From Acidobacteriota bacterium (lineage in GTDB: Bacteria > Acidobacteriota > Thermoanaerobaculia > Multivoradales > Multivoraceae), in assembly GCA_003388555.1 (NCBI GenBank), contig QQVD01000074.1:62001-126000 (forward strand): a stretch of 64,000 nucleotides of DNA. Direction: 5' to 3'. How positions within the stretch are numbered: position 1 is the first letter of the stretch; each line of letters starts with the position of its first letter. Position numbers and translations under genes: made by a program. The notes beneath the pieces are model-generated. The model was not told where the DNA came from and did not search any database. It saw only the letters and a list, made by a program, of their open reading frames with translations. Of the stretch, positions 601-64,000 are shown piece by piece.

Positions 601-699
601 GTGCCTGCGCGCAGCCCGACCGTGCGTGACCCTGCACCACGACCGGTTGCCGGCTCGCAGCGCAACGGGTGAAGGGCGATAGAGTGTCAGGGGCGTCGC

Positions 700-1000: not shown

Positions 1001-1007
1001 CGCCGTC

Positions 1008-4196: not shown

Positions 4197-4441
4197 CGCC
4201 GCGGGGCCGGACCCCGGCAGCGGGGACGAGCACGCCTGGCGCGCGGCCCGAGTCGTCCCCCGACTGTGCGCGGCGCTGTCCCGTCCCACCCTGAGCCGCG
4301 ATCTGAACCAGCGGTGCGGATCCCGCGTATCTGGCACAGAATCCCTCTGCCTGCACACCACCGGCCCCTAGGCCGTGGCGGGCATCACTCCGAGCCCCCG
4401 GATGCAGACCCTTCCCGATCCAACTCCAGGAGAATGATGAA

Positions 4442-8049: not shown

Positions 8050-8279
8050 GGTCGGGTGCTCTGCTCAGGCGGCGGGCCGATGGGGACACCGGGCTCGCCG
8101 GAGCGTCGGCATCCTCCATGGCTTCCCGGACACCGAGTCTCCCTCGGCCGGGGTCCCTCCAGCAACGAGAAGGCCCGCCCGCATGTTCAGCGCACCAGGC
8201 GGTTCGCTGCACAAACTGCTTTCAGACGCTTTCAGCCGCCTGGGACTCGAGGGACACTGGGGCTCGCAAACCGCTCTTT

Positions 8280-9185: not shown

Positions 9186-9210
9186 CGGTCCGCTTCCCGT
9201 CGTGGCCGCT

Positions 9211-9639
9211 TCACAGGTGCGGCGCCAGAGCGCGGCGCAGCTGTTCCTTGGGCAGGGCTCCGACCCAGCGCTCGACCTCGACGCCGCCCCGCAGCAGCAC
9301 CAGGGTCGGGATGCTGCGCGCCGCGAAGCGCGCTGCCAGCCCCGGGCTCGCGTCGACGTCGACTTTCACCACCTTGAGCCGGCCCGCCAGCTCGCGCGAG
9401 AGCTCGTCGAGCACCGGCGCCACGGCCCGGCAGGGGCCGCACCAAGAGGCCCAGAAGTCGACCAGGACCGGCAGCGGGCCGACGCTCTCGGCGGCGAAGC
9501 TGCCGTCGTCGGCGGCGACCAGCCACGGCAGCGGCGCGCCGCAGCGGCCGCACCGCGGCGGCGAGCCGTGCGTCTCCTCGGCGCCGCGCAGACGGTTGCG
9601 GGCGCCACAGGACGGACAGGCGGCGACGTTCTGCGGCAT
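9211..9639 (-). CDS. trxC: Thioredoxin 2 (zinc-finger thioredoxin)
   Basis: 142 residues. The N-terminus has two CxxC pairs (CPSC at 8-11, CGRC at 30-33) forming the zinc ribbon typical of thioredoxin 2. The thioredoxin fold follows, with the active site WCGPC at 66-70 and the cis-proline segment SIPTLVLL. It reduces protein disulfides in the cytoplasm and is often linked to oxidative stress in this subfamily. Start ATG 9639 has AAGAG about 9 bases upstream. It lies 46 bases after the stop of the VPS10/BNR gene and 25 bases before the BrkB gene. No oxidative-stress operator was recognised. Confidence 0.92.
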   Translation of the reverse strand: MPQNVAACPSCGARNRLRGAEETHGSPPRCGRCGAPLPWLVAADDGSFAAESVGPLPVLVDFWASWCGPCRAVAPVLDELSRELAGRLKVVKVDVDASPGLAARFAARSIPTLVLLRGGVEVERWVGALPKEQLRRALAPHL

Positions 9640-9685
9640 GCGCCGACTCTTGCACGAGATCGCCGCTCCGGAGCTGACCCTCGAT

Positions 9686-45517: not shown

Positions 45518-48500
45518 TCAGCGCGCCTCGGCTGCGCCGCCTCGATCGAGCGCGATCTCGACCCCCACCGCCGAGCCCGCCATCGCCAGCTCCACGGGGG
45601 AGTATCCGGGCGCCACCGCCAGCACCCGGTAGACGCCGGGCACCAACGCGCGCAGGGTGAAGGAGCCGTCGTCCGCACTCTGCTCCCGAGATCGTTTCTC
45701 GATCCAGTCGGCGTCGGCGCCAACGAGTGACAGCTGCGCACCCGGCAACGGACGACGACTCGTCGCGTCGACCACCCGGCCGCTGATCTGCACCCGCTCG
45801 AGGTCGAGCTCGAGGGTGCGATCCTCGGCCACGACGCCGCTCCACACCGGCACCAGCTCGCTGGTGGCGTCGGCCACCGCGAGGTGCCAGGTGCCCGGCG
45901 CCAGCCCCTCGAGAGCGCCGCGCCCCATCGCGTTGAGGTTGGCCCAGCTGACCTGACCCTCGGGTCCGTCGGCGGCCACCCAGGCGGCGAGCGGCGCGCC
46001 GTCGACGCGAGCGGTCAGCTGCAGGCGCAGCGCACGCTCGGCGAACTCGAGCTCCACGTGCCGATCGCCCGCCTCGGCGAGCTCGATCTGCCGCTCGACC
46101 TCGCGGCCGTCAGGCAGCGAGGCGCGCAGACGCCAAGCGCCGGCGGCGAGCTCGTCGAGGCGGAACGCTCCGTCGGCGGAGACCTCGGCGGTGGTGACGG
46201 TCCACTCGTGACGGGCGGCGAGACGCACGCTCTGCAGCTCCCGTGCATCGAGGCCGAGGACCCGACCGGTGATCAGGCCCGTGCCGCCGAGCACCACCTC
46301 GACGCCCCGCAGGTCGGAGCCCAGCTCGATCTCGCGCCTCGTCCCCTGGCGCCTGCGCCCCTCGCCGGCGGTACCGCCTGCCCACAGCAGGTAGCGCCCT
46401 GGCTCGAGCCCGCGGAAGCCGAACGATCCGTCGGCCGGGGTCCGGGCCCGAGGGCGGCTGCCAGTCCGCTCACCGACGCCCACTCTCGACAGCACCACCT
46501 CGCTGTCACTCACCGGTGCCCCCCGCATGTCGACCACCCGGCCGGAGAGCTCGAGCCCCTCCTCGAACTCGACCTCGATCCGACGCACCTCGCTGGGTCG
46601 CAGATCGATCGCCACCTCCCGCACCCAGCCACGGTCGTCGACCGCGTGCACGGTGTGGGCGCCGATGCCGACACCGGCGAGGGTGAACTCACCGAAGTCG
46701 TCGGTCACAGCGGCCTCACCGCAGCAGCGCACGCTGACGCCTTCGAGGGCGCGACCGCCGCGCCGCACCACGCCGGTCACCGTGGCGGTGTCGGGCGAGC
46801 GCAGCACCAGGTCGTTGTACTCCTCTCCCGAAGCCACCTCGAGGGGGATCTCGTCGAAGTCGGGACCGCTCGGCGGTCGGCCCCACAGCACCAGCTCGCC
46901 CGATGGCACGCCGCGCAGTACGAACCGCCCGTCGGCGCCGCTGCGCGTGTAGAGCCGCGGCGGCAGCGCGATCGTCGGGTGTCGCGAGCGCAGCGCGACG
47001 TGGGCGCCGGAGACTTCCCGGCCGCGCGCGTCGAGCGCCCGGCCGGAGACGATGGCGGCGCGCTCGAGCTCGACGCGTACCGGCTCGGCGCGCGGCAGCT
47101 CGACGGCGTCGACGGTGCGGGTGACGAAGTCGAAGTGCTCGATGCGCAGGGTCACCTTCTCGTCGCTGCCCAGGCCGGCGATCCTGACTCTCCCGTCGAC
47201 ATCGCTGCGCCGCGGCAGCGCACGTAGATCGCCGGGTGCGACGCGCGGCGAGTCGACACCCGACACCTCTTCGCCCGACCAGCGTGGGTGAGCGCCACGA
47301 AAGAGCACTGTCGCTCCCTCGACGGGGGCCCCGTCGCGGTCGACGAGCTCGACCTCCAGATCGAGCGCGTCACCGAGGACCACCGTGCCGAGCTCGTAGC
47401 GGCCCTGTCGATCGCGGCTGGCACCCGCGAGATCGAGATCGGAGATGGTGGCGGGAGCGTGCCCCGGCGCGCGCACCAGCAGATGCAGGCGCGAGAACGG
47501 CACGTCGGCGAGCACGAAGCCGCCGGCGCCGTCGGTCCGCGCCTGCTGTCGTGGCGGCGCCCCGGCGATCCGCTCGCCAGCGGGCGTCGCGTCGAGCAGG
47601 ACGACCTCGGCGCCGCGCACCGGGACCTCGCCGGCGTCGACCACCCACCCGAGCACGGCGCGAGGCTGGCGGACGACCAGGCGCACCGGCGCCGCCGGTT
47701 CGCCGACGGCGGCCGCGGCGACCTGCACCGGTGTCACCACACGGCCCTCTCCCGGCGAGGCTTCGAGTCGCCAGCGTGATGCGGGCGCCAGGCCGAGGAA
47801 GCGGAACTGGCCCCGGCGATCGCTCAGCGCCGCCAAGCGCGCCAGAGACGGCGCGGAAGTCGCCGCCCCGTCCTCTTCGGCGACGGCGCTGAGCGCGAGC
47901 TCCACACCCGGCACCGGACCGCCGGCCTCGTCGACCAGCTCCCCGATCAACGATGCGGCGCGCTGCAGCTCGACATCGCCCGGCGGTGCATCCCGGGAGG
48001 CACGCGTCCAGGCGTAGCCGGAGGCGCCGACCAGGACGTCGCGACGCGGATCGGTGGCGATCTCGAACCCGCCGTCCGGGCCGCTGCGCGTTGCGGTCGC
48101 GCCGGCCACCACGAAGGCCGCCGCGAGGGGACGGCCGTCGGCGGCGTCGCGCACCGTGCCGCGGACTCGCGGCCAGGGCCGCAGGCTGAGCTCGACCGCT
48201 TCATCGCCTCCACCACCGATCGCTATCTCGATCCGTGCCGACGCTCGACGCGACAGGGCCTCGATGCGCGACGAGGCACCTGCGTTCAGCCGCAGCTCGT
48301 GCACCCCGCCGCCCGGGTCGGCATCGAGCCGGGCGACCGGCCGACCGTCGACCAGCACCACCGTCGGCTCGGTGACCAGACCGACGAGCAGGGTGCGGCC
48401 CGACACCTCGGCCAGCGGATCGTGCGCCACCGTGACGCCGCCGTTCCTGCCTCTGTCGCCGATCTCGATCCGCTCCCGCCCCCAACGGTTGCTGGCGTAG

Positions 48501-49276
48501 AACTGCAGCATCTCGGCATCGGCGCGCACGAACTCGAACTCGTCCGGTGCCAGGTCGTCTCCGCTCGGTGTCGAGAACCGGTCGCCGCCGGTCCAACCGT
48601 AGAGCGGCGGCCGCCGCCAACCGACCGGCGCCACGGAGCCGGTTCGCTCCGACTGCGTCAGGACCACCCAGGATCGCTCCGCGGCGTCAGCGGGACCGAC
48701 CGACGAGACGTCGGGCGGCACCACCCGCAGTCGCTCAACGTGGGCCGGTGCCAGAACCAACGTCGGCAGGTGGAGCTCGCTGGGTACCGGCAGCACGGCG
48801 TACTCGTAGTCCAAGTGGCCGGCGCTCTGCACGAGCACCCGCGCCGGCCCGTTCAGGTCGGCCACCAGCTCGAAGTGCCCGTCGCGGTCCCAGGCACCAC
48901 GGGCGAGGACGAGTTCGCCGGCGATGTTCCCCGGTGCTGCCGGACCGCTTTGGCGTCCCTCGTCCGCCGCCAACCTCTGCAGCTCGGCGAGCGCCTCGAG
49001 CAGCCGGTCGGCACGCGACCGGGCGGCGAGAATCGACACCTGGCCGGAACCCGGTCGCGGCACCGAGCCGTCGGAGCGAACGACGCGGCCGGTGACCCTC
49101 ACGGCGACTCCGGAGCCTTGTGAGGCCGCGGCCTGCGACGAGTGCGCCGCTGGTTCCTGCGCCCAGGCGGTGACGGCGGCCGACAGCAGAAGCGAGGCAA
49201 CGAGGCGCCGGCGGCGCATCGGTGCACGCTCGACGCTGCGCCCCGCCACCGTCGTCGTGGTGGTGCTGGAGGTCAT
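45518..49276 (-). CDS. Large exported carboxypeptidase-regulatory-like repeat protein
   Basis: About 1252 residues from ATG 49276, or 1233 from ATG 49219, which directly starts the signal peptide MRRRRLVASLLLSAAVTAWA. The protein is a chain of CarboxypepD_reg/Cna-B-like modules of about 85 residues. Examples are VRGTVRDAADGRPLAAAFVV, GWVVDAGEVPVRGAEVVLLD, VTGVVRRGGRALEGVSVRCC and ISGRVVDATSRRPLPGAQLS. At least ten are visible. Unlike the 22198-26472 protein it lacks the Cys-pair pattern and the DGFESGD tail; it ends VEIALDRGGAAEAR. Such proteins are probably outer-surface or periplasmic structural proteins; function unknown. The frame is open upstream but not protein-like. Confidence 0.78.
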   Translation of the reverse strand: MTSSTTTTTVAGRSVERAPMRRRRLVASLLLSAAVTAWAQEPAAHSSQAAASQGSGVAVRVTGRVVRSDGSVPRPGSGQVSILAARSRADRLLEALAELQRLAADEGRQSGPAAPGNIAGELVLARGAWDRDGHFELVADLNGPARVLVQSAGHLDYEYAVLPVPSELHLPTLVLAPAHVERLRVVPPDVSSVGPADAAERSWVVLTQSERTGSVAPVGWRRPPLYGWTGGDRFSTPSGDDLAPDEFEFVRADAEMLQFYASNRWGRERIEIGDRGRNGGVTVAHDPLAEVSGRTLLVGLVTEPTVVLVDGRPVARLDADPGGGVHELRLNAGASSRIEALSRRASARIEIAIGGGGDEAVELSLRPWPRVRGTVRDAADGRPLAAAFVVAGATATRSGPDGGFEIATDPRRDVLVGASGYAWTRASRDAPPGDVELQRAASLIGELVDEAGGPVPGVELALSAVAEEDGAATSAPSLARLAALSDRRGQFRFLGLAPASRWRLEASPGEGRVVTPVQVAAAAVGEPAAPVRLVVRQPRAVLGWVVDAGEVPVRGAEVVLLDATPAGERIAGAPPRQQARTDGAGGFVLADVPFSRLHLLVRAPGHAPATISDLDLAGASRDRQGRYELGTVVLGDALDLEVELVDRDGAPVEGATVLFRGAHPRWSGEEVSGVDSPRVAPGDLRALPRRSDVDGRVRIAGLGSDEKVTLRIEHFDFVTRTVDAVELPRAEPVRVELERAAIVSGRALDARGREVSGAHVALRSRHPTIALPPRLYTRSGADGRFVLRGVPSGELVLWGRPPSGPDFDEIPLEVASGEEYNDLVLRSPDTATVTGVVRRGGRALEGVSVRCCGEAAVTDDFGEFTLAGVGIGAHTVHAVDDRGWVREVAIDLRPSEVRRIEVEFEEGLELSGRVVDMRGAPVSDSEVVLSRVGVGERTGSRPRARTPADGSFGFRGLEPGRYLLWAGGTAGEGRRRQGTRREIELGSDLRGVEVVLGGTGLITGRVLGLDARELQSVRLAARHEWTVTTAEVSADGAFRLDELAAGAWRLRASLPDGREVERQIELAEAGDRHVELEFAERALRLQLTARVDGAPLAAWVAADGPEGQVSWANLNAMGRGALEGLAPGTWHLAVADATSELVPVWSGVVAEDRTLELDLERVQISGRVVDATSRRPLPGAQLSLVGADADWIEKRSREQSADDGSFTLRALVPGVYRVLAVAPGYSPVELAMAGSAVGVEIALDRGGAAEAR

Positions 49277-49531
49277 CCTGGCTCGTGGTTCCCGGCCGGC
49301 CAATGCCGTGACCGGGCCGCGGAATTCCGCCTTTCGGTGGAGTCCGATCCCCGGGCAACCTCTTCGCGGCCCCAGGCGCCTCGAGCTTCCGGCACGGGAG
49401 CGCCACGGGGTTCTGCGAGAATCCCGGCCCGGCACTTCGGTCCATGCCTTCCATCCCCCGGACCGACGCCGGCCCGCCGGCCGAGCTGGCTCGGCAGGCG
49501 GCGTCGACCCGGGATGCAGGAGACTTCCGAC

Positions 49532-50569: not shown

Positions 50570-51124
50570 TCAGGCTGGCTCGCCCGGCGATCGCCACTCC
50601 ATGAGCCGGTAGACGCCGTTGTGGTCGCGCTCGCAGAAACCGAGCCGCTCGTAGAGGGTCTTCGCCGGGTTGTTCGCCTCGACGTGGATACGTACCGCCA
50701 GACCCCGCGCCGACGCCGACTCGAGGAGGTCCTCGAGCACCGCGGTGCCGACGCCGTTGCCCCGCTGCTGCGGCAGCAGCGCGATGTCGACGAGGCGCAC
50801 CTCGTCTTCGCGCAGATGCAGGTAGAGGCGCCCGATCCCGGTTCCGAAGCGCTCGAGCACGAGGAACTGGGCGTCGGCGTAGTGCTGCTGGTAGTGCCGG
50901 TGCTGCGCCTCGAACTGCTGGCGCAGGAAGGCCTCCTTCTCCGCCTCGCTCCACGGCACCGGAGCCATCTCCTCGCGCCGGGTGCTGGCGTAGAGCTCGG
51001 CCAGGAACTCGGTGTCGCCCTCGGCGATCGGTCGCACAGCGAGCCCCCTGGCTCTCGCCCGGTCACCCAGAGCCGGAAAGCTCCCGTGGGCCCGGCCCGC
51101 TCCTGCTCCACCGACTTCGTCCAC
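50570..51124 (-). CDS. GNAT-family N-acetyltransferase
   Basis: 184 residues. LAVRPIAEGDTEFLAELYAS starts the domain and LLPQQRGNGVGTAVLEDLLE carries the acetyl-CoA pyrophosphate site (Q-x-x-G-x-G). VEANNPAKTLYERLGFCERD is the usual C-terminal N-x-x-A-x-x-L-Y-E-R-x-G-F helix. The target (amine, protein N-terminus or small molecule) is not evident. GTG 51124 has GGGGAGG 5 bases upstream and is preferred over the open upstream extension. It lies just downstream of glnK on the same strand. Confidence 0.86.
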   Translation of the reverse strand: MDEVGGAGAGRAHGSFPALGDRARARGLAVRPIAEGDTEFLAELYASTRREEMAPVPWSEAEKEAFLRQQFEAQHRHYQQHYADAQFLVLERFGTGIGRLYLHLREDEVRLVDIALLPQQRGNGVGTAVLEDLLESASARGLAVRIHVEANNPAKTLYERLGFCERDHNGVYRLMEWRSPGEPA

Positions 51125-51251
51125 GTGCACCTCCCCAGAGGAGGGTTCGAGAGAGAAACGGTAGCAGGCTAGCAGCCCGGGCCGAGCCTCCCACGGCGGC
51201 CGTCCGCGGCCCGGGCTGGGCGGGTTGGGCGGCGCGTGGCGCACCGCGGCA

Positions 51252-53450: not shown

Positions 53451-53456
53451 TCAGTC
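53394..53456. repeat. 9-base tandem repeat, seven copies, covering a stop codon
   Basis: Seven units of GGGTCAGTC (copies 2 and 3 are GGGCCAGTC) lie end to end. On the minus strand each normal unit gives TGACCCGAC, so the stop codon of the neighbouring Tat-type gene (TGA at 53451-53453) is the first of a series, and copies recur in the same frame every 9 bases. Copy number could change without altering the protein. Confidence 0.92.
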
Positions 53457-54290
53457 GACCGACTCGAAGGCGATCAACAGGCAGCGACCGATCCGCGCCA
53501 GCGGGCCTGCCGAGATCGAGCGGGGAGATCGCAGCGAGTGCGGCGCCACGGACAGCAGGTAGAGCCCCCGCGTCAGTTTGGGCTGGGCTCTCCAGCCGTC
53601 GACCGTCAGCGCCGAGCGGAAGCGATCGACCCCCCACTCGCCCAGCACCGGCCGAGAGTCGACCGGGCCGCCGACGCCGGACGCAGCGGACGACGCCGAC
53701 GCGCCATCGCCGCCGGGACCCTCGACGCTTCCAGCGACGCCGAGCAGGAGGCGTCGACGCTGCTCCACCTCGAGATCGAGGGTCAGCACTCCGTCGGCGC
53801 CGATCGGCAGCTCGCACGCCAGGGACGACGCCTCGTTCAGCACCCCACCGGTGCGCGAAGAAGACCACAGCTCGACGCGGACCGTCTCCTCCGGGGCCCC
53901 GGCCGGAGTCGGCAGGATCGCGGAGAGGGAGATGCGACGGAAGTCCGGCCACTCGCGCCGCCGAAGCCGCGGATAGAGACCGTGCACCGTCAGCCGCACC
54001 GAGCCACCGGCCAGCTCCGGGTCACCTCCATCGAGGGCGACCGCCGGGATGAGGTCCACAGCGCCCGCGACGCCTTCGGAACCGTCCTCCGGCAGCAGGT
54101 CGTGCGGCCAGGAATCGAGGTCCTCGAGCTCGGCCGAACCGAGCACGAAAGCGAGCTCGAGCGGATCGGGCACGTCCGCGGTCAGCCACTCGGACACCGC
54201 CGAGAGGCGAGCCGCCGAGCCTGCACTGGCTGTCAGGAGTCCGGCTCGCAACACGTCGCGACGCCGCCAACCGGGCACTGAGACGGCCAT
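53451..54290 (-). CDS. Tat-type exported protein, unknown function
   Basis: 279 residues. The N-terminus VPGWRRRDVLRAGLLTASAG has a twin-arginine signal. The mature part is beta-rich (VDLIPAVALDGGDPELAGGS, VRLTVHGLYPRLRR, ISLSAILPTPAGAPEETVRV, LARIGRCLLIAFESVD) and has a Gly/Ser/Asp-rich insertion near residue 205. I do not recognise a family. ATG 54290 has GAAGGGG 9 bases upstream. It is divergent from the lysine-tail gene and the collar-protein cluster and could be a secreted partner, but only location suggests this. The 3' end lies in a seven-copy tandem repeat. Confidence 0.6.
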   Translation of the reverse strand: MAVSVPGWRRRDVLRAGLLTASAGSAARLSAVSEWLTADVPDPLELAFVLGSAELEDLDSWPHDLLPEDGSEGVAGAVDLIPAVALDGGDPELAGGSVRLTVHGLYPRLRRREWPDFRRISLSAILPTPAGAPEETVRVELWSSSRTGGVLNEASSLACELPIGADGVLTLDLEVEQRRRLLLGVAGSVEGPGGDGASASSAASGVGGPVDSRPVLGEWGVDRFRSALTVDGWRAQPKLTRGLYLLSVAPHSLRSPRSISAGPLARIGRCLLIAFESVD

Positions 54291-54543: not shown

Positions 54544-55071
54544 ATGCAGATCACGGCGTTACGCGCGACGCTCGACGCCCCCCGCAACGTCGAGATCGCC
54601 CAGGACCCGGTGCGGATCGACGCCCGCGTGACCCTCACCAACCAGAGCGACCACAGTGTGGTCCTGTCGTCGCCGGCCGGCAAAGACCCGCACTTCTGGC
54701 ACGTCCTCGACTCGAACCAACGCGAGGTCGCCCGCCAGAGCGACGAGTCTCCTCTCACCAGGCACCACGCCTCGCCTCTCATCGCGACCGGACACGAGGC
54801 GCACGAGTCCTTCACCGCAAGCGTCCCGGCACGGAAGCTCCGGTCCGGCCGCAGCTACACCCTGAGGGTGGTCTTCCACGGCTGCCCGGCGGAGGTGTGC
54901 TTCACCGCCTTTACGGTGCCCAAGAAGGCCGCGGCCAAAGAGAAGAAGACGGCGAAGGACGGCAAGCAGGCGGCCAGCAGGAAGCCGGCCAAGAAGAAGA
55001 CGACCAAGAAGAAGACCAAGAAGAAGACCAAGAAGGCCACCAGGAAGACCTCTGAGAAGTCCGCCCGCTGA
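54544..55071 (+). CDS. Small protein with beta domain and histone-H1-like lysine tail
   Basis: 175 residues. Residues 1-125 form a probable Ig-like beta-sandwich (IDARVTLTNQSDHSVVLSSP; SGRSYTLRVVFHGCPAEVCF with a Cys pair). The last 48 residues are Lys/Ala/Thr-rich (KPAKKKTTKKKTKKKTKK), like bacterial or eukaryotic H1-type tails. Part of the tail is made of four near-identical 12-base units. No signal peptide is visible. The tail could bind DNA, polyanionic glycans or the cell surface; none can be chosen. ATG 54544 has AGGAGG 5 bases upstream. It directly precedes three tail-collar genes on the same strand. Confidence 0.72.
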   Translation: MQITALRATLDAPRNVEIAQDPVRIDARVTLTNQSDHSVVLSSPAGKDPHFWHVLDSNQREVARQSDESPLTRHHASPLIATGHEAHESFTASVPARKLRSGRSYTLRVVFHGCPAEVCFTAFTVPKKAAAKEKKTAKDGKQAASRKPAKKKTTKKKTKKKTKKATRKTSEKSAR

Positions 55072-55158: not shown

Positions 55159-55695
55159 ATGTCCGAACCGTTTCTCGCCGAGATCCGCATCGTCGGCTTC
55201 AACTTCGCCCCGCGCGGCTGGGCCTTCTGCGACGGCCAGATCCTGCCGATCAACCAGAACCAGTCGCTCTACTCTCTGCTCGGCACCACCTACGGGGGCG
55301 ACGGTCGCACGTCCTTCGCCCTGCCCGACCTCAGGGGACGCACGCCGATCCACGTCGGAGCCAGCAACGGGGGAGCGCATCATGTCGAAGGTCAGAAGGG
55401 GGGCGAGGAGACCCACACCCTGAGCGCAGCGGAGATGCCGCAGCACACCCACCAGATGGCCGCGACGAGCGACACCGCCTCGGCGAACACACCGCAGGGC
55501 AACCGACCGGCCGCCACCACCGCGGCGGTCGGCAACCTCTACCGCACCGCCACCAGCGGCAGCGGCCTCGACGTCACCCTGGCCGCCGGAGCGGTGACCA
55601 ATGTCGGCGGTGGCCAGGCCCACGACAACATGCAGCCCTATCTGGTGCTCAACTTCTGCATCGCGCTGCAGGGCCTCTTCCCTTCACGCAACTGA
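55159..55695 (+). CDS. Phage-tail-collar (MdpB-like) protein 1
   Basis: 178 residues. The family start is MSEPFLAEIRIVGFNFAPRG, followed by WAFCDGQILPINQNQSLYSL, LGTTYGGDGRTSFALPDLRG and the C-terminal HDNMQPYLVLNFCIALQGLF. The collar domain is known from phage tail fibres and from bacterial proteins named MdpB or microcystin-dependent; in bacteria its role is not established. It has an AGGAGC-type ribosome binding site 9 bases before ATG 55159. It is the first of three paralogues and has a longer middle part with Thr/Ala repeats. Confidence 0.88.
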   Translation: MSEPFLAEIRIVGFNFAPRGWAFCDGQILPINQNQSLYSLLGTTYGGDGRTSFALPDLRGRTPIHVGASNGGAHHVEGQKGGEETHTLSAAEMPQHTHQMAATSDTASANTPQGNRPAATTAAVGNLYRTATSGSGLDVTLAAGAVTNVGGGQAHDNMQPYLVLNFCIALQGLFPSRN

Positions 55696-55714: not shown

Positions 55715-56236
55715 ATGTCCGAACCCTTCGTCGGCGAGATCCGCATGTTCGCGGGCAACTTCGCGCCCCGCGGCTGGGCGTTCTGCGACGGCCAGCTGCT
55801 CGCGGTGTCGCAGAACGACGCCCTGTTCAGCCTCCTCGGAACGGTCTACGGGGGTGACGGCCGCACCACCTTCGGCCTGCCCGACCTGCGCGGCCGCATC
55901 CCGATCCACGCCGGTACCGGACCGGGCCTCAGCCCGAGACGGCTCGGCGCCAAGGCCGGGGAGGAGAACGTGACCCTGACCGTCAATCAGATGCCTTCGC
56001 ACACCCACGGCTGGCGCGCATCTTCGGGTGCGGCGACCGAGACCAGCCCTTCGGGCGCCGGCTACGCCCAGACCTCGGCGCTCGACGTCTACAACGACGC
56101 GCCGACGTCGTTCGCGGCCATGGCGAGCGACATGATCGGCAACGTCGGCGGCTCACGCAGCCACACGAACCTCATGCCCTTCCTCTGCGTGCACTTCATC
56201 ATCGCCCTCTTCGGCATCTACCCCTCCCGCCACTGA
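55715..56236 (+). CDS. Phage-tail-collar (MdpB-like) protein 2
   Basis: 173 residues, the same layout as its neighbours: MSEPFVGEIRMFAGNFAPRG, WAFCDGQLLAVSQNDALFSL, VYGGDGRTTFGLPDLRGR and the ending FLCVHFIIALFGIYPSRH. The middle third (about 85-130), with TVNQMPSHTHGW, differs most between the three copies, which fits a variable binding tip. Start ATG 55715 has GGGAG 6 bases upstream. It lies 19 bases after the first copy, so one transcript is likely. No signal peptide is present on any of the three. Confidence 0.88.
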   Translation: MSEPFVGEIRMFAGNFAPRGWAFCDGQLLAVSQNDALFSLLGTVYGGDGRTTFGLPDLRGRIPIHAGTGPGLSPRRLGAKAGEENVTLTVNQMPSHTHGWRASSGAATETSPSGAGYAQTSALDVYNDAPTSFAAMASDMIGNVGGSRSHTNLMPFLCVHFIIALFGIYPSRH

Positions 56237-56263: not shown

Positions 56264-56785
56264 ATGTCCGAACCCTTCATCGCCGAGATCCGCATCTTCG
56301 CCGGCAACTTCGCGCCGCAGGGCTGGGCCTTCTGCAACGGTCAGCTGCTGCCGATCGCCCAGAACACCGCCCTCTTCTCGCTCATCGGCACCACCTACGG
56401 CGGTGACGGCCGCACCACCACCGCGCTGCCCAACCTCGAGGGGCGGGCGCCGATGCACCCCGGCCGCGGTCCCGGCCTGACCGACCGGCGCCTTGGTCAA
56501 CGCGGCGGCGTCGAGACGGTCACCCTGACCGAGGCCCAGTTGCCGAACCACAACCACAGCGCTCAGGGCGGGCTGGGCGCCGCCAACGAGCGCAACCCGG
56601 GCAACCATTACCCGGGGCAGGTCGCCGGCCGCGGCACCTCGGTCTACGCTCCCCCGACCGGCACGCAGGTTCCCTTCGAGTCGCTGGCCGACAGCGGCGG
56701 CTCGCAGGCACACAACAACATGCAGCCGTTCCTGACGATGAACTTCATCATCGCTCTCGTCGGGCTCTACCCGAGCCGATCCTGA
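56264..56785 (+). CDS. Phage-tail-collar (MdpB-like) protein 3
   Basis: 173 residues: MSEPFIAEIRIFAGNFAPQG, WAFCNGQLLPIAQNTALFSL, TYGGDGRTTTALPNLEGRAP and the ending LTMNFIIALVGLYPSRS. It retains the collar glycines and the paired Asn/His region (EAQLPNHNHSAQGG). CNGQ replaces CDGQ. ATG 56264 has GAGGAG 8 bases upstream. The third copy lies 27 bases after the second, and the methyltransferase-like gene follows on the same strand. All three are about equally diverged, so the duplications are not recent. Confidence 0.88.
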   Translation: MSEPFIAEIRIFAGNFAPQGWAFCNGQLLPIAQNTALFSLIGTTYGGDGRTTTALPNLEGRAPMHPGRGPGLTDRRLGQRGGVETVTLTEAQLPNHNHSAQGGLGAANERNPGNHYPGQVAGRGTSVYAPPTGTQVPFESLADSGGSQAHNNMQPFLTMNFIIALVGLYPSRS

Positions 56786-56874: not shown

Positions 56875-57474
56875 GTGCGCTGTGACGCGCCGGAGGGGCG
56901 TTCGGGCCGCTGGGTGCTCGAGCGCTTCGAGGTGCGCGAGGACCCCGACTACCGCGCCGAGCTCGACGAACGGCCGCCCTGGGTGCGCCGCGAACCGGGG
57001 ATCTATTCGCAGCTGCGCCGCGACGGTGTGGTCTACATGACCGACCTGTTCGACGAGTGGTACACCCAGCGCGCCTTCCTCGAACGAGCCCGGCTGCATC
57101 CGGCAGGAGAACATCTGGTCACCGGGCTAGGCCTCGGCCTGGTCGTCGAGACCCTGCTCCAGGACCCGAGCTGCGCGCCGCGGCGGATCACCGTCGTCGA
57201 GAGATCCGCCGACGTGCTGCGGCTCGTCGGCGACCATCTCGCGGCACGCTACGGCGCCAGTCTGCGGCTGGTCGAAGCCGACGCCTTCAGCTGGCAGCCA
57301 CCGCAGGGCGAGCGCTTCGACCTGATCTGGCACGACATCTGGCCGGACCCACGGGCGCCCGAGGTGGCCAGGGAGATCGAGCTCCTCGAGCGCCGCTACG
57401 CGCCCTTCTGCGCACCGCAGGACGGGTGGCAGGGGTCGTGGCCCCGCGAGTACCGCGCCGCCTACGGCGACTGA
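56875..57474 (+). CDS. Methyltransferase/spermidine-synthase-like protein
   Basis: About 199 residues from GTG 56875. HLVTGLGLGLVVETLLQDPS resembles a Rossmann motif I (spermidine synthase or small methyltransferase type), VERSADVLRLVGDHLAARYG the acidic loop, and FDLIWHDIWPDP motif IV. No assigned substrate; the WHDIWPD segment is typical of a family of conserved proteins near tail-like genes in my reading, which is not a firm assignment. No ribosome binding site precedes the start. The gene overlaps the end of the convergent radical SAM gene by 13 bases. Confidence 0.6.
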   Translation: MRCDAPEGRSGRWVLERFEVREDPDYRAELDERPPWVRREPGIYSQLRRDGVVYMTDLFDEWYTQRAFLERARLHPAGEHLVTGLGLGLVVETLLQDPSCAPRRITVVERSADVLRLVGDHLAARYGASLRLVEADAFSWQPPQGERFDLIWHDIWPDPRAPEVAREIELLERRYAPFCAPQDGWQGSWPREYRAAYGD

Positions 57475-58940
57475 TCGGCGCCCGCGGACGACTGCCCCAG
57501 CGAGTCGAGGATGCCGCGCGTGAGCGCGCCCGGAAGCGCGAGATCGATCCGATCGCGGCGTTCTCCGCCGCTCCAATCGGAGAGGTAGCTTTCGTAGAAC
57601 CGCTCGCACAGGCGCAGGTCAGCGAGCGAGAAGGTGTCGCTGCGCAGCAGCTCGTACGGCGGGTCGCTGCTGAAAACCATGCCGAAGCGCTCGGCGTCGC
57701 GCATCAGCGGCGAGCCGGGCAGCCCGAGCAGCCGGTAGGCGACGATCTCGCAGTCGCGCGCCGCGAGGTACTCCACGGTGGCGAAGAAGTCAAAGGGCCT
57801 GGTGCCCGGAAGGCCGTAGATGATGTCGACGTAGAAGCGCACCCGGGCGCGGCGCAGCTCCGCGATCGCGCGCTCGAAGCGTTCGCGGTTCTCGGGCCGG
57901 CGCACCTCACGCAGGCCCTGGCTCGAGATCGTCTGCAGGCCGAGGCCGACGCAGGTCACTCTCGCGGCAGCCAGCAGGTCGGCCATCTCGCCGTCGATCG
58001 AATCCGGGTATGCCTCGAAGTAGAGGGTGCCGCGGTAGTCGTGCCGCGCCAGCTCGGCGAGGATCCGCTTGGCGCGCTGGACGTAGGTGGTGAAGGTCGG
58101 ATCGATGATCTCGACCGCGAGGCCCCGGCGCAGGAGCGCCAGCAGCTCGCTGACGACCAGGCCCTCCTCCTTCGCGTTCAGCGGTGTCTTGCCGTACATG
58201 CAGTACGAGCACGCATAGGGGCAGCCGCGCAGCGTCTCGTAGAGCACGTGCGGCCACGACCAGCTCTGGTCGGCCAGTGCGTCGAGCTCGCCGGCGTCCC
58301 ACACCGCGGTCAACCGTGTCATGTCGGTGGCCGGCGCGGTACTGGCCGCTGGAGCCGCCGCCGCGGCCGGCGGCGTCCTGCGTACGAGGACGCCGGGGAT
58401 CCCCTCCGGCGGCTTTCGAGCCGGGTCGCAGGGGGTTCCTCGGGTCTGCTGACGCGCGACGACGAGCCGGCGCAGCGGCTCCTCGCCGTCGCCCTCGACC
58501 ACCGCGGCGATCGCCGGGTGGCGGGTCAGGATCTCGGCGCCCCGACCACTGACGTCGGGGCCTCCGAGCAGCACCCAGCTCTCCGGCAGCAGGCGGGCGA
58601 CCGCATCGGCCAGGCGCAACGACAGCTGCACGTTCCACAGGTAGCACGAGAACCCGACGATGTCGGGGCCGGGCGCGACGACCTCGTCGAGCGCCTGGTC
58701 GAAGCGGGTGGAGAACGACCAGCGTTGGATCGCGCTGTCGGCGTCGCGCAGGAACGGCTGCAGCGGCCAGTCGAACAGAAGCACCTCGACGCCCGCGGGT
58801 GCCAGCGCCAGCTCGGCATCGCTCTCCAGATAGCGCCGCAGGTTGCGCAGCGCCAGCGACGGGCAGTGGCCGAGCGAGACCAGGGCGATCCGCAAGGGCC
58901 GGTGAACCTCCGCCGGTGGCGATACGGCTACGCCGGTCAC
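57462..58940 (-). CDS. B12-binding-domain radical SAM protein
   Basis: 492 residues. Residues 15-160 form a cobalamin-binding-like Rossmann domain (RIALVSLGHCPSLALRNLRR; GPDIVGFSCYLWNVQLSLRL; WVLLGGPDVSGRGAEIL) without the DxHxxG motif, as in most of this radical SAM subclass. The radical SAM core has RGCPYACSYCMYG with the cluster-binding C-x3-C-x2-C at Cys240, Cys244 and Cys247, followed by the barrel (EIIDPTFTTYVQRAKRIL; YVDIIYGLPGTRPFDFFATV). Such enzymes methylate or rearrange unactivated carbons on peptides, lipids or glycans. It starts at GTG 58940, overlapping the upstream beta-helix gene stop by GTGA, with GGGAGGG 6 bases before. Substrate is inferred only from context. Confidence 0.86.
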   Translation of the reverse strand: MTGVAVSPPAEVHRPLRIALVSLGHCPSLALRNLRRYLESDAELALAPAGVEVLLFDWPLQPFLRDADSAIQRWSFSTRFDQALDEVVAPGPDIVGFSCYLWNVQLSLRLADAVARLLPESWVLLGGPDVSGRGAEILTRHPAIAAVVEGDGEEPLRRLVVARQQTRGTPCDPARKPPEGIPGVLVRRTPPAAAAAPAASTAPATDMTRLTAVWDAGELDALADQSWSWPHVLYETLRGCPYACSYCMYGKTPLNAKEEGLVVSELLALLRRGLAVEIIDPTFTTYVQRAKRILAELARHDYRGTLYFEAYPDSIDGEMADLLAAARVTCVGLGLQTISSQGLREVRRPENRERFERAIAELRRARVRFYVDIIYGLPGTRPFDFFATVEYLAARDCEIVAYRLLGLPGSPLMRDAERFGMVFSSDPPYELLRSDTFSLADLRLCERFYESYLSDWSGGERRDRIDLALPGALTRGILDSLGQSSAGADQSP

Positions 58941-61003
58941 CGCTCGCCCTCCCGATCCCCAGCCGAGGGCGCCGTGCAGCGCTCCACCCGGCCGGTCGCC
59001 AGCTCGCCGACGACCTCCAGCCGGCCGCGGTTGCCACGCGCCTGCCACGCCTCCTGGATCCCACCGGCTGCCGACGAGCCACCGGCGGCAGCGAGCTCCA
59101 GGAGACTGCCCTCGTCACCGGCGACCCGCAGGTCCGCCTCGTAGACGACTTCCTCGGAGTCGAGGCAGAGCGTCGCACCCTGCCGCAGCTCGGCGACCAG
59201 GCTGGGCTCCTGCTCGTAGGAGGGCCGCGCCAGCTCCTCGGCCCCGAGCCGCAGGACCACGCTCGCTCCCGATCTGGCGCGGATGCGCACCGGGCTGCCG
59301 GGCACGTCGAAGACGCCGGTCGGCGGGAAGTCGACCGTGCCGCGCACCAGTTCGTTGCCGCGTGCCGCGATCCCGGCGCTGACCGGCCCCTCGGCGAGCA
59401 CGCCGTAGCCGACCGAGACCGGGCGCTCGAACCGGTTGCGCTCGATGCGCAGGTCGGCGCGCGCCGGAGGCCCGGCGGCGGGGGCCTCGATCGTGAGCGC
59501 GACGTTGGCGACCGCCCCGTCGGCATTGCCCAGCTCGACGAAGCGATTGCCCAGCACCTCGGCGAACAGCTCGGAACCGCCACCGCTCTGGCGCAGAGCC
59601 AGTCCTCCCTGCGGCTCGTTGCCGGCGCCCCACTGCTGCTGGTGATGGCTCGCGACCACCTCGTTGTCCTCGATCGCGGCGCCGACGTGGGACGCTTCGC
59701 CCTCGCTCGCCAGCAGCACCGAGCCGATGGTGCAGTCGCGGAAGCGGTTGCCGCGGAGCTCGACGCTCGCCGTGCCGCCCGCTCGCGACCACCACCGCAG
59801 GCAGTGCGCCCCTGCCACCGAGCCATCGCCGCGCACCCGCCAGGAGTCGGCGAGGCCGGAGTCGACGACCTCGAGGCGCACGCCATGATCGCCGGGGACG
59901 AAGGTCTCGGCGTGGCGCACGTCGAGCAGGCGATGACCGCCGACGAGCTCGCTGCGCTCGATCCGGACCGCGTCGACGTCGACCATCACCACCGCTCCCT
60001 CCTCGCCCCCGTCCATGCCGTGCATCAGGTCATAACGGCTGGCGTCGCGCACCGTGCTGTCGCGCAGCACGAAGCGCCCGGCTCGCTGGAGCCGGATCGC
60101 TTCGTCGCTGACCCGCTCGATGCGCACCCGCTCGATCTCGACATCCACAACCTCGACCAGATCGAGGGCACGGTGACCGCTCACCGCCGGCCCCTGGAGC
60201 CGGCGATCGCCGACGTCGGTGATCACGGAGTCGGCGAGGTGCAGGCGCGACAGACCTTGCGCCGTCACCGCGCTGGCGTCGAGACCGCGGAGCATCGCCG
60301 CGGCGACGACGAGCTCGCCGACCGGTGCCTTGCCGTCCACCTCCTCGCCACGCGCCGCGACCGCGGTAGCGGTGCGGGCGGTGGTGCGCAGGCCGAGCAG
60401 CCGCAGGCTGCCGCGCAATCGGTCGACCGTGACCGCCGATCCTGCCTCGGCAGCGACGGCGACGCCGCAGAAGAGGACGGTCAGCGAAGCGAAATGCTCG
60501 CCGTCGAGGCGCAGGGGCGGCAGGGTCGCGGGCTCGCCGCCGGACGACGCGCCCGGGTCTCCATCCTCCTGCTGCGGATCGAGCTCGCACGAGGGCCCGG
60601 GGCCGCCGGTCACGAGCAACACCCTTTCAGGCCCCGCCACCAGCTCCTGCAATCGCGCCAGCCCCGAAGACGCCGAGCAGGTGGCCGGTCGCCAGGTGCC
60701 GATCCGCGCCTCGTCGACCTCCTCGCAGCCCGGCCAGCGCCCCGCGGCGTCGACGATCATGTCGGGTGACGGCGGCAGCGCGAAGCGCTGGCGCTGCGCC
60801 GCGTCGACGCCGAGGCACGACCAGCAGAGCTCGTCGGCGACCTGCAGTGCCGGCAGCCGCTGGGCGCAGCCGACGAGCATCGCGAGCAGGCCGCACGGCA
60901 GCCCGAACCGACGCCATGCTACGGACGGGGACCTCACCGTCGGCGTGGCGGCGCACGGCGCCGCGGGCTCGCGCCCGCGTGCTCCGTGCCGAGCCGTCCT
61001 CAT
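58937..61003 (-). CDS. Beta-helix lipoprotein
   Basis: 688 residues from ATG 61003. A start at GTG 60937 would give a cleaner lipoprotein signal (WRRFGLPCGLLAMLVGC, lipobox MLVGC). After a Cys-rich region (ELCWSCLG; CEEVDEARIGTW; CSASSGLARLQ) comes a right-handed beta-helix (DVEIERVRIERVSDEAIRLQ; RFVLRDSTVRDASRYDLMHG; VELRGNRFRDCTIGSVLLAS; ADLRIERNRFERPVSVGYGV). It is likely anchored in the outer membrane or periplasm. It is translated together with the radical SAM gene (GTGA overlap), which makes a functional link likely. It is related in layout to the larger beta-helix protein encoded upstream. Confidence 0.76.
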   Translation of the reverse strand: MRTARHGARGREPAAPCAATPTVRSPSVAWRRFGLPCGLLAMLVGCAQRLPALQVADELCWSCLGVDAAQRQRFALPPSPDMIVDAAGRWPGCEEVDEARIGTWRPATCSASSGLARLQELVAGPERVLLVTGGPGPSCELDPQQEDGDPGASSGGEPATLPPLRLDGEHFASLTVLFCGVAVAAEAGSAVTVDRLRGSLRLLGLRTTARTATAVAARGEEVDGKAPVGELVVAAAMLRGLDASAVTAQGLSRLHLADSVITDVGDRRLQGPAVSGHRALDLVEVVDVEIERVRIERVSDEAIRLQRAGRFVLRDSTVRDASRYDLMHGMDGGEEGAVVMVDVDAVRIERSELVGGHRLLDVRHAETFVPGDHGVRLEVVDSGLADSWRVRGDGSVAGAHCLRWWSRAGGTASVELRGNRFRDCTIGSVLLASEGEASHVGAAIEDNEVVASHHQQQWGAGNEPQGGLALRQSGGGSELFAEVLGNRFVELGNADGAVANVALTIEAPAAGPPARADLRIERNRFERPVSVGYGVLAEGPVSAGIAARGNELVRGTVDFPPTGVFDVPGSPVRIRARSGASVVLRLGAEELARPSYEQEPSLVAELRQGATLCLDSEEVVYEADLRVAGDEGSLLELAAAGGSSAAGGIQEAWQARGNRGRLEVVGELATGRVERCTAPSAGDREGER

Positions 61004-61026
61004 GCCTCGCGCCGAGCGCGACCGCC

Positions 61027-64000
61027 TCAGGGAATCACCGGGTTCGGAACCGTCGGCTGGGTCGTCGAGCAGGCGATCGTGCCGCCGCCGACGGTCACCA
61101 CCGTCGGCGGGTCGGTCGCGTCCGAGTTCATGCCGCCAGTGTTGCCGTTGCCGTCGACGATCTGGGCCGGCGTCAGCGGGCAGCCCGTCTCCGAATACAG
61201 GTTCAGCGTTCCGCCGCCGATGTCGAAGCGGTAACCGTCCGGCGACACCACGTCGTCGAGCCAAAGGTCGAAGGTGCCGCCGGAGACGTTGATCGACGCA
61301 TCGAACGAGTGCGGGAAGATCGAGAACACGTCGTCGTGCTGCGGCAGGACCTCGCCTGCCGGGCCACTGCCGTCGAGCCGCAGGTCGAGCGAGCCGCCGT
61401 TGCGCACGTTGACCAGCCACGGGTTGAACGGCGACTGGGTCACGAATCCGACGTCATCGCCAGCGCTGCCGACCGTGCCGTCGACATACGTGTTGTCATG
61501 GAAGAGCACCCTTGCGCTACCGTTGGCGTCCGCCAGGATGCGCACCGATGCGTCCCACGGCAGGCGGAAGGTGTTGTCGCGCACGACCATGTCCGAGCTG
61601 CCGCCGGCGTCGGCGACGATGGTGAGCTGACCGAGACCGCCGTCGGCGTGCATCACCTCGTCGAACAGGTTGTCCTCGACGATGGCGTCGAACTGGCCGC
61701 CTCGCGGCCCCAGGTACACGCCGCCCTGCGGATGGAAGAACTGCAGCGAGCCGCCCGGACAGGTGCTCGGGCCGGTGAGGTGGTCGACGACCCGGAAGGT
61801 GTTGTTGGCGATCAGGGTATCGACCTCGCCGGTGGCGCCGCTGTCGTGCACGATCACCAGCGATGCCGTGTTGTTGTCGGTGAAGCTGTTGGCGAGGGCG
61901 CCGGCACCACCGATGACGGCGTCCACGCTGGTGCTGCCGCGGGCCAGAAGCGAGATCCCCGCCTTGCCCACGCTCACCGTGCCCGGCGGCGAGCAGTTGA
62001 ATTCCTTCGTCGTGGTGTTGAAGGTGTTGCCGGTGACGGTCAGCGCCAGGCTGCCCGAGGTCGCGCTCCAGAAGTCGAGGTGCTGGGCCGTGCGGCTGAA
62101 GGTCGAGTTGCTCACCGTGACGGTGCCGCTGAGCCCGATGATCCGGATGCCGCCCTCGCCCGAGTCGTCCCCGAGCCCCGCCGGCCCGCTCGGGCCGACG
62201 TGGTAGCGGTTGGCGTCCTCGATCACCGCGTTGTTGACGACCAGGCCGTTCCACGGCGTCGCCGAGATGCCGTCGGCGAACAGCGATCCGCTGACCGCGT
62301 TGTCGGAGAAGCGCCGTAGCGTGACGCTCTGCAGCGTCAGGCCGCCGTCGACGCTCTGGCCGTGGATGCCGTCGACGTTGCGCCGCGTGCCGTAGTTGTC
62401 GGCGCCGTCGCTGGCGTGCGCGATGTCCTCGAGGATCACGTTCTGCAGCGTCACCCGGCCGTCGGTGTTGTTCAGGGTGATCGCGTCGACGTCGGTGAGG
62501 TTCTCGATCGTGCCGCCGGAGCCGTTGCCTCCCGAGCTCGTGGTGCCGTCGCCGGTGACCGTGAAGGTGCCGGCGCCGGTGTCGTCGAGCACGATGGCGA
62601 CCGTGTCGGGGGCGGTGGAGCCCTGGTTCACCGCGATGCTGCGGAAGGTGACGCCACTGGCGCCGATCGTCGTGTCGGTGATCTCGACCGCCCGTCCGAC
62701 CAGCGCGGTGGTCGCGCCGATCGTGTTGATGACCGTGGAGCCACCGCCGCCGCACAGCGACGTCGCACAGACGTTCACCGTGCCGCCGCCGGTGGCGCTG
62801 AAGGCGGTGTTCGCGCCGGTGTCGAGGGCCATACCGCCGCGGAAGGTCGCCGTGCCGCCGGTGTTGGAGGCGAGGCGGATGCCCGCGCCGTTGTCGTCGA
62901 TCGCACCGTTGAAGGTGATCGAGCCGACGGAGCCGCCGTCGATCTCGACCGAACGCCCGGCGTCGTTCTCGATCGAGGCGGAGATCGTCACCGTGCCGTC
63001 CACGTCCGCCGCGTCGAAGCCGCGCCCTGTCGCCCCGGCGATGTTCTGGATCGTGCCGCCGGATACGGTGAACGCGCCGGCGCTGCCGGTGCCGGAGAGC
63101 ACCACGCCGCCCGAAGCGTCGCCCGAGGCGCCGACGTTCACCGTCGCGAAGGTGACCCCCGGGGCACCGATGGTCGAGCTCTGCAGCCGCACTCCGATGC
63201 CTCCGGCGCCCCCGGGCGCGCCGCTGACGTCGACCGAGCTGCCGACACCGGTCACCGCCAGGTTGGCGACGTTCGAAGCGTCGAAGCCGTTGCCGTCGGT
63301 GGTGTCGAGATCGAGGGCTGCGGAGAAACCCACCGTCCCGGCGCCGGCGATCTCGATCGCGTTCACGGTCTGCGACGCCACCGTGATCGGCACGGCGAAG
63401 GTCAACGTGCCGGTGGCATGCCCGGTCACGTGCACACCTCTGGCGACGTTGTTCTGCGTGATCGACCCGCCGACGTAGCTGACGCCCGCGGTGCTGGAGT
63501 CGACCCGAAACGCCGTGCCCGTCGGCGAGGTGATCGTGGTGTCGGCGAAGGTGAAGGTGCCGCCCGAACCGGCGACGATGTCGACCCCGGCGTCGCCGCC
63601 GCCGAGGTTCGCCGTGCCGTTGAACGTGTAGACGCCGTCGGCGTTGCTGAACTGCAGTCCGGTGCCGTTGGTGGCGCCGATCGTGCCGGTCTGGAAGAGC
63701 AGGGTGCCGAGAGTGTGGTTGCCACCGACGGACACCGCAGCACCGCTGCCGGTCTGGGTGATCGAGCCGCCGTAGGTGACGCTCACCGTGCCGTCGGTGA
63801 CCTCGAAGGCGGGCGTCGCCGAGGCGTTGGTCAGGGCGCCGCCGCTGGCGGTCACCACGCCGGCGACCTCGTCGAAACGCACCGAGCTGCCGCTCAGCGA
63901 GCCGAGGGTGATCGCCGACGTCATCGGGTCGAGATCGAGCGCCCGCGCGGTGCCGCTGTCGACGGAGCCGGCAGAGATCTCGAGGGTGAAGTCCGCCGCT
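61027..64000 (-). CDS. Large exported right-handed beta-helix protein (partial)
   Basis: At least 991 residues; the start lies beyond the right window edge. The visible part is a long Gly/Asp/Thr-rich beta-helix with rungs such as VTISASIENDAGRSVEIDGG and GIRLASNTGGTATFRGGM. The last 350 residues have right-handed parallel helix signatures (NTFRVVDHLTGPSTCPGG; AIVEDNLFDEVMHADGGL; SDMVVRDNTFRLPWDASV). A DANRYHVGPSG segment resembles DASRYDLMHG in the next gene product. The composition suggests an extracellular filament or adhesin. It ends 24 bases before the beta-helix lipoprotein gene, so it heads the transcript with the radical SAM gene. Partial, so no signal peptide can be checked. Confidence 0.82.
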   Translation of the reverse strand, partial: AADFTLEISAGSVDSGTARALDLDPMTSAITLGSLSGSSVRFDEVAGVVTASGGALTNASATPAFEVTDGTVSVTYGGSITQTGSGAAVSVGGNHTLGTLLFQTGTIGATNGTGLQFSNADGVYTFNGTANLGGGDAGVDIVAGSGGTFTFADTTITSPTGTAFRVDSSTAGVSYVGGSITQNNVARGVHVTGHATGTLTFAVPITVASQTVNAIEIAGAGTVGFSAALDLDTTDGNGFDASNVANLAVTGVGSSVDVSGAPGGAGGIGVRLQSSTIGAPGVTFATVNVGASGDASGGVVLSGTGSAGAFTVSGGTIQNIAGATGRGFDAADVDGTVTISASIENDAGRSVEIDGGSVGSITFNGAIDDNGAGIRLASNTGGTATFRGGMALDTGANTAFSATGGGTVNVCATSLCGGGGSTVINTIGATTALVGRAVEITDTTIGASGVTFRSIAVNQGSTAPDTVAIVLDDTGAGTFTVTGDGTTSSGGNGSGGTIENLTDVDAITLNNTDGRVTLQNVILEDIAHASDGADNYGTRRNVDGIHGQSVDGGLTLQSVTLRRFSDNAVSGSLFADGISATPWNGLVVNNAVIEDANRYHVGPSGPAGLGDDSGEGGIRIIGLSGTVTVSNSTFSRTAQHLDFWSATSGSLALTVTGNTFNTTTKEFNCSPPGTVSVGKAGISLLARGSTSVDAVIGGAGALANSFTDNNTASLVIVHDSGATGEVDTLIANNTFRVVDHLTGPSTCPGGSLQFFHPQGGVYLGPRGGQFDAIVEDNLFDEVMHADGGLGQLTIVADAGGSSDMVVRDNTFRLPWDASVRILADANGSARVLFHDNTYVDGTVGSAGDDVGFVTQSPFNPWLVNVRNGGSLDLRLDGSGPAGEVLPQHDDVFSIFPHSFDASINVSGGTFDLWLDDVVSPDGYRFDIGGGTLNLYSETGCPLTPAQIVDGNGNTGGMNSDATDPPTVVTVGGGTIACSTTQPTVPNPVIP

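Follow-up and report, generated by a model that had tools for sequence, protein, structure and literature searches.

The closest solved relatives of the enzyme considered here, the radical S-adenosylmethionine (SAM) enzymes CysS, TokK and TsrM, sit in natural-product clusters. B12 radical SAM enzymes can also act on a large protein, as is reported for MgmA and Mmp10, which C-methylate methyl-coenzyme M reductase (PMC11796369; PMC8828468). The subject of this report is a gene for a B12-binding radical SAM protein in a stretch of 64,000 nucleotides (the window, meaning that whole stretch), which comprises bases 62001-126000 of contig 18 (QQVD01000074.1) in a 6.8 Mb genome (G000) of the acidobacteriotal class Thermoanaerobaculia. 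Here, the gene lies in a variable locus of uncultured bacteria that also encodes three proteins with a phage tail collar domain, a small methyltransferase-like protein and a giant exported protein, and in the genomes searched its orthologue is confined to this collar/giant-protein locus. The reading put forward, which is tentative and falls somewhat short of probable, is that the radical SAM gene is a rare, optional accessory of the locus whose product acts together with the methyltransferase to modify the giant protein before export, near a C-terminal module designated type II.

The genes of the window's minus strand follow the order cohesin-like gene, giant exported protein, lipoprotein and radical SAM gene; converging on the last of these from the plus strand are the genes for a lysine-rich-tailed protein, the three collar proteins and the methyltransferase-like protein (Table 1). 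A first-pass annotation of the window had described the large protein, the lipoprotein and the radical SAM enzyme as a translationally coupled trio with a 24-base gap and a GTGA overlap. The gene order is as described, with the cohesin-like gene preceding it and sharing one base of its stop codon with the start codon of the giant gene, and the GTGA overlap is formed by the TGA of the lipoprotein gene and the GTG of the radical SAM gene. The gap is indeed short, with 23 bases between the giant gene's stop (61027) and the lipoprotein's ATG (61003), and its size depends on the start chosen because an in-frame GTG 66 bases inside the ATG would give a more usual signal peptide. The convergent overlap with the collar cluster was likewise found; it amounts to 13 bases, tail to tail, between the radical SAM and methyltransferase-like genes, and this link to the collars is better conserved than the trio.

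The class of the enzyme is indicated by its domains. The N-terminal B12-binding domain (PF02310) scores 47 bits against a cut-off of 32.1, the Radical_SAM domain (PF04055) is also above its cut-off, and the cluster motif CX3CX2C lies inside the latter, so that the sequence features of class B are present and the identity first proposed is upheld. No curated NCBIfam model reaches its cut-off: the best is KedN5 (NF033712; 99 bits against 700), followed by TIGR04013 (70 against 251) and by TIGR03975, the C-methyltransferases that mature ribosomally synthesised and post-translationally modified peptides (RiPPs; 65.8 against 281.85). A lipid or bacteriochlorophyll-type subfamily, which the first-pass annotation had named as an outcome that would speak against its proposal, is rejected, with BchE at 34.2 bits against a cut-off of 481, HpnR at 54.3 against 650 and HpnJ at 18.3 against 578. 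Solved structures found by sequence search are those of CysS, TokK and TsrM, and a fold search with the predicted model returned the same three first and then AprD4, OxsB and MgmA. These fold matches support the class only, since the model, built from a two-row alignment, is weak (mean predicted local distance difference test, pLDDT, of 56) and the best template modelling scores (TM-scores) are 0.26-0.41. From sequence and model, the protein may be taken as a cobalamin (class B) type enzyme of an unnamed subfamily, most likely a C-methyltransferase, for which both methyl transfer and cobalamin use would be expected. The host genome as a whole contains 22 Radical_SAM matches, of which the present analysis covers the one in the window.

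The orthologue is rare. A search of 98 relatives at an expectation value (E) of 1e-15 gave 15 matches including the window's own, among which only that of G041, a genome of the same order and a different family, is orthologous (about 50-51% identity), the others lying at 27-31%. A two-row profile identified a true orthologue in 2 of 148 genomes of the class, the window's own counted, and among 396 genomes of the phylum at E 1e-40 there were seven matches, comprising the window's own (about 995 bits) and six at 144-167 bits. A contig profile search with the two-row alignment found as its sole match the G041 record, JALXFE010000492.1, from a metagenome assembly of Thermoanaerobaculia (Acidobacteriota). 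These and the following surveys may have overlooked homologues that are weak or unusual, because a limited number of candidates was scored per genome, namely the best 10 (class) and 3 (phylum) for the radical SAM protein, up to 21 (class) and the best 7 (phylum) for the methyltransferase, 16 for the type II profile and 17 for the lipoprotein.

In G041 the radical SAM gene is again tail-to-tail with the methyltransferase gene, with 1 base between the stops, and divergent from the lysine-rich gene; beyond the methyltransferase come first the collar triplet and then, 2.4 kb away, the giant gene. The tail-to-tail position with the methyltransferase behind the collar triplet is thus common to both genomes. 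Occurrence of the radical SAM gene mostly without beta-helix neighbours, the other outcome named as adverse to the first proposal, is half borne out, as the giant gene accompanies the radical SAM gene in both loci (2 of 2) and shares a run of genes with it in one (1 of 2). The trio does not hold as a conserved coupled unit, for the gene order differs in G041 and, of 72 genomes of the order, only the window's own yielded the lipoprotein, the other match being the giant protein of G057 (28%). As a control, 18 loci (204 kb) around distant radical SAM homologues were searched in six frames at a threshold of E 1e-8; the distant homologue itself was recovered in 18 of 18, and homologues of the collar, giant, methyltransferase, lysine-rich, GNAT and DUF6916 proteins in 0 of 18.

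The locus itself is far more common than the enzyme. The three adjacent collar genes of the window score 98-106 bits against PF07484 (cut-off 24), with the T4 short tail fibre among the PDB matches of their products, and such collar proteins are present in 45 of the 145 genomes of the class, usually three to a genome. Forty-one of these loci were analysed (G105, G133, G134 and G140 were left out); a simple gene caller found the collars in 39, missing those of L091 and L094, and a six-frame search over 625 kb in all 41. The six-frame search, which for the giant protein, GNAT and DUF6916 excluded queries from the locus under search, detected homologues of the giant protein in 35 loci, GNAT in 33, DUF6916 in 29, the methyltransferase in 5 and the radical SAM orthologue in 2, the window's own GNAT gene lying just outside the stretch used. 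In 25 of the 39 loci where the simple gene caller found collars, the giant gene directly precedes them in the same orientation; in G002, of the same family as the host, it is on the far side and reversed as in the window, and the radical SAM gene is absent. Judged by these matches, the collar triplet, giant protein, GNAT and DUF6916 look like a widespread locus of the class, and the conserved entity is this larger locus of giant protein and collar triplet, in which the modifying enzymes are optional. The lysine-rich gene is present in 6 of 145 class genomes and at most about 6 kb from the collars in all six; its product (window 54544-55071; L026:11502-12047) combines a BsuPI-like domain with a histone-like lysine-rich tail. 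A protein with a Tat signal was noted in 11 collar loci.

In the open-licence literature no paper was found on such a locus, on DUF6916 or on Thermoanaerobaculia radical SAM enzymes; the locus looks like an undescribed kind, and the radical SAM protein appears to form a rare and new subfamily within a known class of enzymes. Signs of positive selection are reported for phage tail collar paralogues of Solibacter (PMC3174227), which may belong to the same family as the present collar proteins.

It is the methyltransferase rather than the radical SAM enzyme that provides the strongest functional link within the locus, through its co-occurrence with the type II C-terminus of the giant protein. With regard to METHYLTRANSFERASE and C-terminal type, the methyltransferase is present in 5 of 145 class genomes, which belong to five families (G000, G041, G049, G039 and G070), and it adjoins the collar triplet in every one; the 396-genome phylum sample adds just one further match, at 29 bits. 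For the window's protein, Pfam gave nothing at E 0.01, and PRMT5 was reached in the PDB at E 0.12 with a two-row profile; its G041 homologue matches PRMT5 at 17.5 bits, below the cut-off of 22.9. The giant-protein group has 47 members, of which a truncated G041 duplicate, two short exported proteins and one contig-end fragment were left out; the other 43, with more than one from some loci and fragments among them, were scored for C-terminal type. A type II C-terminus is common to the giant proteins of all five methyltransferase genomes, each scoring 129-242 bits when left out of the profile, against 25 bits for the best of the 37 members from loci without the methyltransferase. When run over 145 genomes of the class, the type II profile recovers the five, by construction, and in addition G057 (196 bits); only 150 bases of contig follow the giant gene there, which makes G057 unscorable for the methyltransferase.

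In a collar tree of 36 triplets from 35 loci, four of the five methyltransferase loci fall in a strongly supported clade of 16 and G039 in the other clade, so that the methyltransferase label needs at least two changes; overall, the label is not significantly clustered (75 of 500 shuffles as low). The G039 giant protein (1782 residues) is chimeric, matching that of G050, from its own family, up to residue 1443 and the type II protein of G049 over residues 1034-1782. Its methyltransferase matches the other four at 51-58%, which match each other at 48-60%, and its collars stand at 53-56% as against 73-74%. Given this single chimera and the placement of the G039 collars in the other clade, it appears that the methyltransferase and the module, located on either side of the collars, moved as a pair.

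The type II module also differs in its cysteines. In an alignment of seven C-termini, three columns hold cysteine in G057, G049, G039 and the window lipoprotein, with G070 having cysteine at two and a gap at one, and the two genomes with the radical SAM gene both have Asn, Asp and Pro there instead; two further cysteine columns are common to G049, G039 and G070 only. A cysteine near the end and one upstream were counted, crudely, in 32 of the 37 group members without the methyltransferase, and since the pattern is usual in these other members, both radical SAM genomes have lost a common family feature.

From front to back, the giant protein shows a dockerin-like stretch (under cut-off) and immunoglobulin (Ig) and cadherin-like domains, in a scan that began after the first 20 residues, and then about 1000 residues without a family match; it carries a Sec-type signal. 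The lipoprotein has LVGC after a hydrophobic stretch, read by eye, as expected of a lipobox, and scores 38-48 bits against the leave-one-out type II profiles and 85.6 bits against a fuller one, by which it is, on sequence comparison, a shortened paralogue of the C-terminal part of the giant protein. The beta-helix label originally given to both proteins found no support. Neither Pfam nor the PDB gave a beta-helix match with single sequences or an 8-row profile, the hydropathy periodicity was not above shuffles, and the lipoprotein model (pLDDT 35) is too poor for a fold search; a repeat-rich, beta-solenoid-like C-terminal part of the giant protein is an impression. The cohesin-like protein, encoded directly ahead of the giant protein with its dockerin-like stretch, has an exosortase-like hydrophobic tail by eye, and a similar pair was seen by eye in G002 (L057), where the giant protein matches Dockerin_1 at 16.4 bits. 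The pair possibly represents a cohesin-dockerin attachment.

In the proposed mechanism, the radical SAM enzyme and the small methyltransferase would act in the cytoplasm on the C-terminal module of the newly made giant protein, the former methylating unreactive carbons of the module, and the modified protein would then be exported by Sec. Modification of the repeat proteins before export had been suggested at the outset; it is plausible, given a giant protein in both loci and a neighbouring methyltransferase that tracks C-terminal type, though not in the form of a conserved coupled unit.

Several observations weigh against this proposal. The giant protein is exported and the enzyme is cytoplasmic, a mismatch of compartment that favours the collar or lysine-rich proteins as targets, and no conserved target motif was found. 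The tracking of C-terminal type holds for the methyltransferase and not for the radical SAM gene, which is present in 2 of the 5 methyltransferase loci and absent from three, one of those genomes being 82% complete. AprD4, one of the fold matches, is not known to use cobalamin, and a cobalamin-type domain therefore does not establish its use. With only two orthologues, whose type II C-termini are the closest of ten pairs (52.5%), the 2 of 2 linkage and the shared loss of cysteines may reflect shared ancestry, and these two cases are unable to separate cause from ancestry in the cysteine loss. In G000 the loss may even be a shift, because another cysteine, which the crude count took as terminal, lies 14 residues from the end and four before the aligned column.

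The export problem would not arise if the substrate were a cytoplasmic protein of the locus, that is, a collar or the lysine-rich protein, an explanation that is unlikely but deserves weight. Both radical SAM orthologues adjoin the methyltransferase and collars, the collar proteins have no signal peptide by eye and near-invariant ends (MSEPF...PSR), and the lysine-rich gene is present in both genomes as well as keeping close to the collars wherever it occurs. The collars, however, are found in 45 of 145 genomes and the lysine-rich gene in 6, yet the enzyme in only 2 of 148, and among the 36 triplets the columns that mark the two radical SAM genomes number 0 in collar 1 and two each in collars 2 and 3, all within a variable stretch around residues 110-121.

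It is somewhat less likely again that the enzyme acts on a small molecule, a lipid or a glycan, either joined to the surface protein or displayed alongside it, as might be thought from the small pantetheinylated substrates of CysS and TokK, the closest solved relatives, and from KedN5, the best curated match and a natural-product enzyme. The hopanoid and bacteriochlorophyll families are far under their cut-offs, and inspection by eye of the called genes of the two loci, some of which were domain-scanned, showed neither a glycosyltransferase nor a biosynthetic gene for small molecules. A passenger role for the radical SAM gene, in which a single insertion behind the methyltransferase was passed on along with the locus and no functional tie exists, is improbable: it would fit a gene known from two genomes with divergence like that of its neighbours (radical SAM 51%, methyltransferase 50.5%, giant C-terminus 52.5%), as co-inheritance predicts, but at 51% identity the gene is intact with its motif, and its tail-to-tail position is the same in both genomes despite the different layout of the remaining locus.

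A broader and distinctly speculative reading would be a system of modular surface display, with the C-terminal module of the giant protein swapped between lineages along with its own enzymes and with carbon-centred modifications of the module by the B12 radical SAM enzyme (methyl or cross-link), made ahead of export, replacing, in one branch, the possible disulphides of the relatives; little probability is attached to it. The features of the locus are collected in Table 1.

Table 1. Positions of the radical SAM gene and associated features, in window coordinates unless stated otherwise
Feature	Position	Strand	Remarks
B12-binding/radical SAM gene	57462..58940	-	GTG start 58940, stop 57462; 492 aa
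B12-binding domain (PF02310)	58464..58700	-	Pfam match
Radical SAM domain (PF04055)	57771..58238	-	Pfam match
CX3CX2C iron-sulphur motif	58200..58223	-	identical pattern in G041 orthologue
Lipoprotein	58937..61003	-	LVGC, putative lipobox; shortened paralogue of giant protein C-terminal part; three cysteines retained
Giant exported protein, C-terminal 990 aa	61027..64000	-	whole protein 1979 aa, beginning outside the window at window-equivalent 66966
Type II module at C-terminus of giant protein (last 300 aa)	61030..61929	-	profile comparison
Small class I methyltransferase-like protein	56875..57474	+	tail-to-tail with radical SAM gene
Collar-domain protein 1	55159..55695	+	PF07484
Collar-domain protein 2	55715..56236	+	PF07484
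Collar-domain protein 3	56264..56785	+	PF07484
Small protein with lysine-rich tail	54544..55071	+	front part matches BsuPI (PF12690) exactly at cut-off
Protein with RRR-type export signal	53451..54290	-	by-eye likeness only to Tat-signal protein (group c5) of other collar loci
GNAT acetyltransferase	50570..51244	-	54% identity to a GNAT of the G041 locus
Cohesin-like gene	L009:11967-12674 (window-equivalent 66966-67673)	-	PF00963 at 23.0 bits, cut-off 24.1

Beyond these, the window contains a gene set at 1008-4193 on the plus strand that had been offered as a B12 uptake operon supplying the cofactor. Its binding protein, FecCD and ATP-binding cassette (ABC) components are those of an importer of iron-complex or B12 type. 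Its specificity for B12 is unproven, as the set lies 53 kb from the radical SAM gene and is accompanied by no riboswitch match, an Rfam scan of the window having given no family at gathering score, the cobalamin riboswitch included. Adjoining the GNAT gene, at 45518-49300 (minus strand), is a gene whose large product contains numerous repeats of the carboxypeptidase-regulatory-like type (PF13620, 220 bits). Among the distant radical SAM homologues, two B12/radical SAM homologues stand either side of another CX3CX2C-type protein in a tight run at 6172-10357 (minus strand) of L100 (G205), which looks like a separate peptide or natural-product cluster, and two further homologues are adjacent and in tandem at 603-4456 (plus strand) of L103 (G060).

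If the giant protein is the substrate, the scope of modification by B12 radical SAM enzymes would grow from peptide natural products and a methane enzyme to include a giant surface protein that is exported, and the locus would offer a natural exchange of module plus enzyme that allows the target of the enzyme to be deduced from genome sequences. Leaving the radical SAM step aside, the link between methyltransferase and C-terminal type still predicts a substrate in a way open to direct test, in a bacterial locus that is uncharacterised.

Compared with known systems, the window enzyme shares with CysS, TokK and TsrM, its top sequence and fold matches, a B12-binding domain followed by a radical SAM domain with CX3CX2C; it differs in length (about 490 residues against 575-681), shows 20-22% identity in the fold alignments, and is set in a surface-protein locus rather than a natural-product cluster. 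The RiPP-maturing C-methyltransferases of TIGR03975 resemble it as the third-best curated match, with their 282-bit cut-off not reached. The collar proteins agree with those of phage tails (PF07484; T4 short tail fibre) in a domain match above cut-off in all three genes, and differ in being small proteins encoded as a bacterial triplet beside a giant exported protein. MgmA, itself a fold match, and Mmp10 provide the precedent of a large protein as target rather than a peptide precursor (PMC11796369; PMC8828468), with the differences that their target is archaeal and cytoplasmic and that the sequence relation is weak (TIGR04014, 23 bits against 360).

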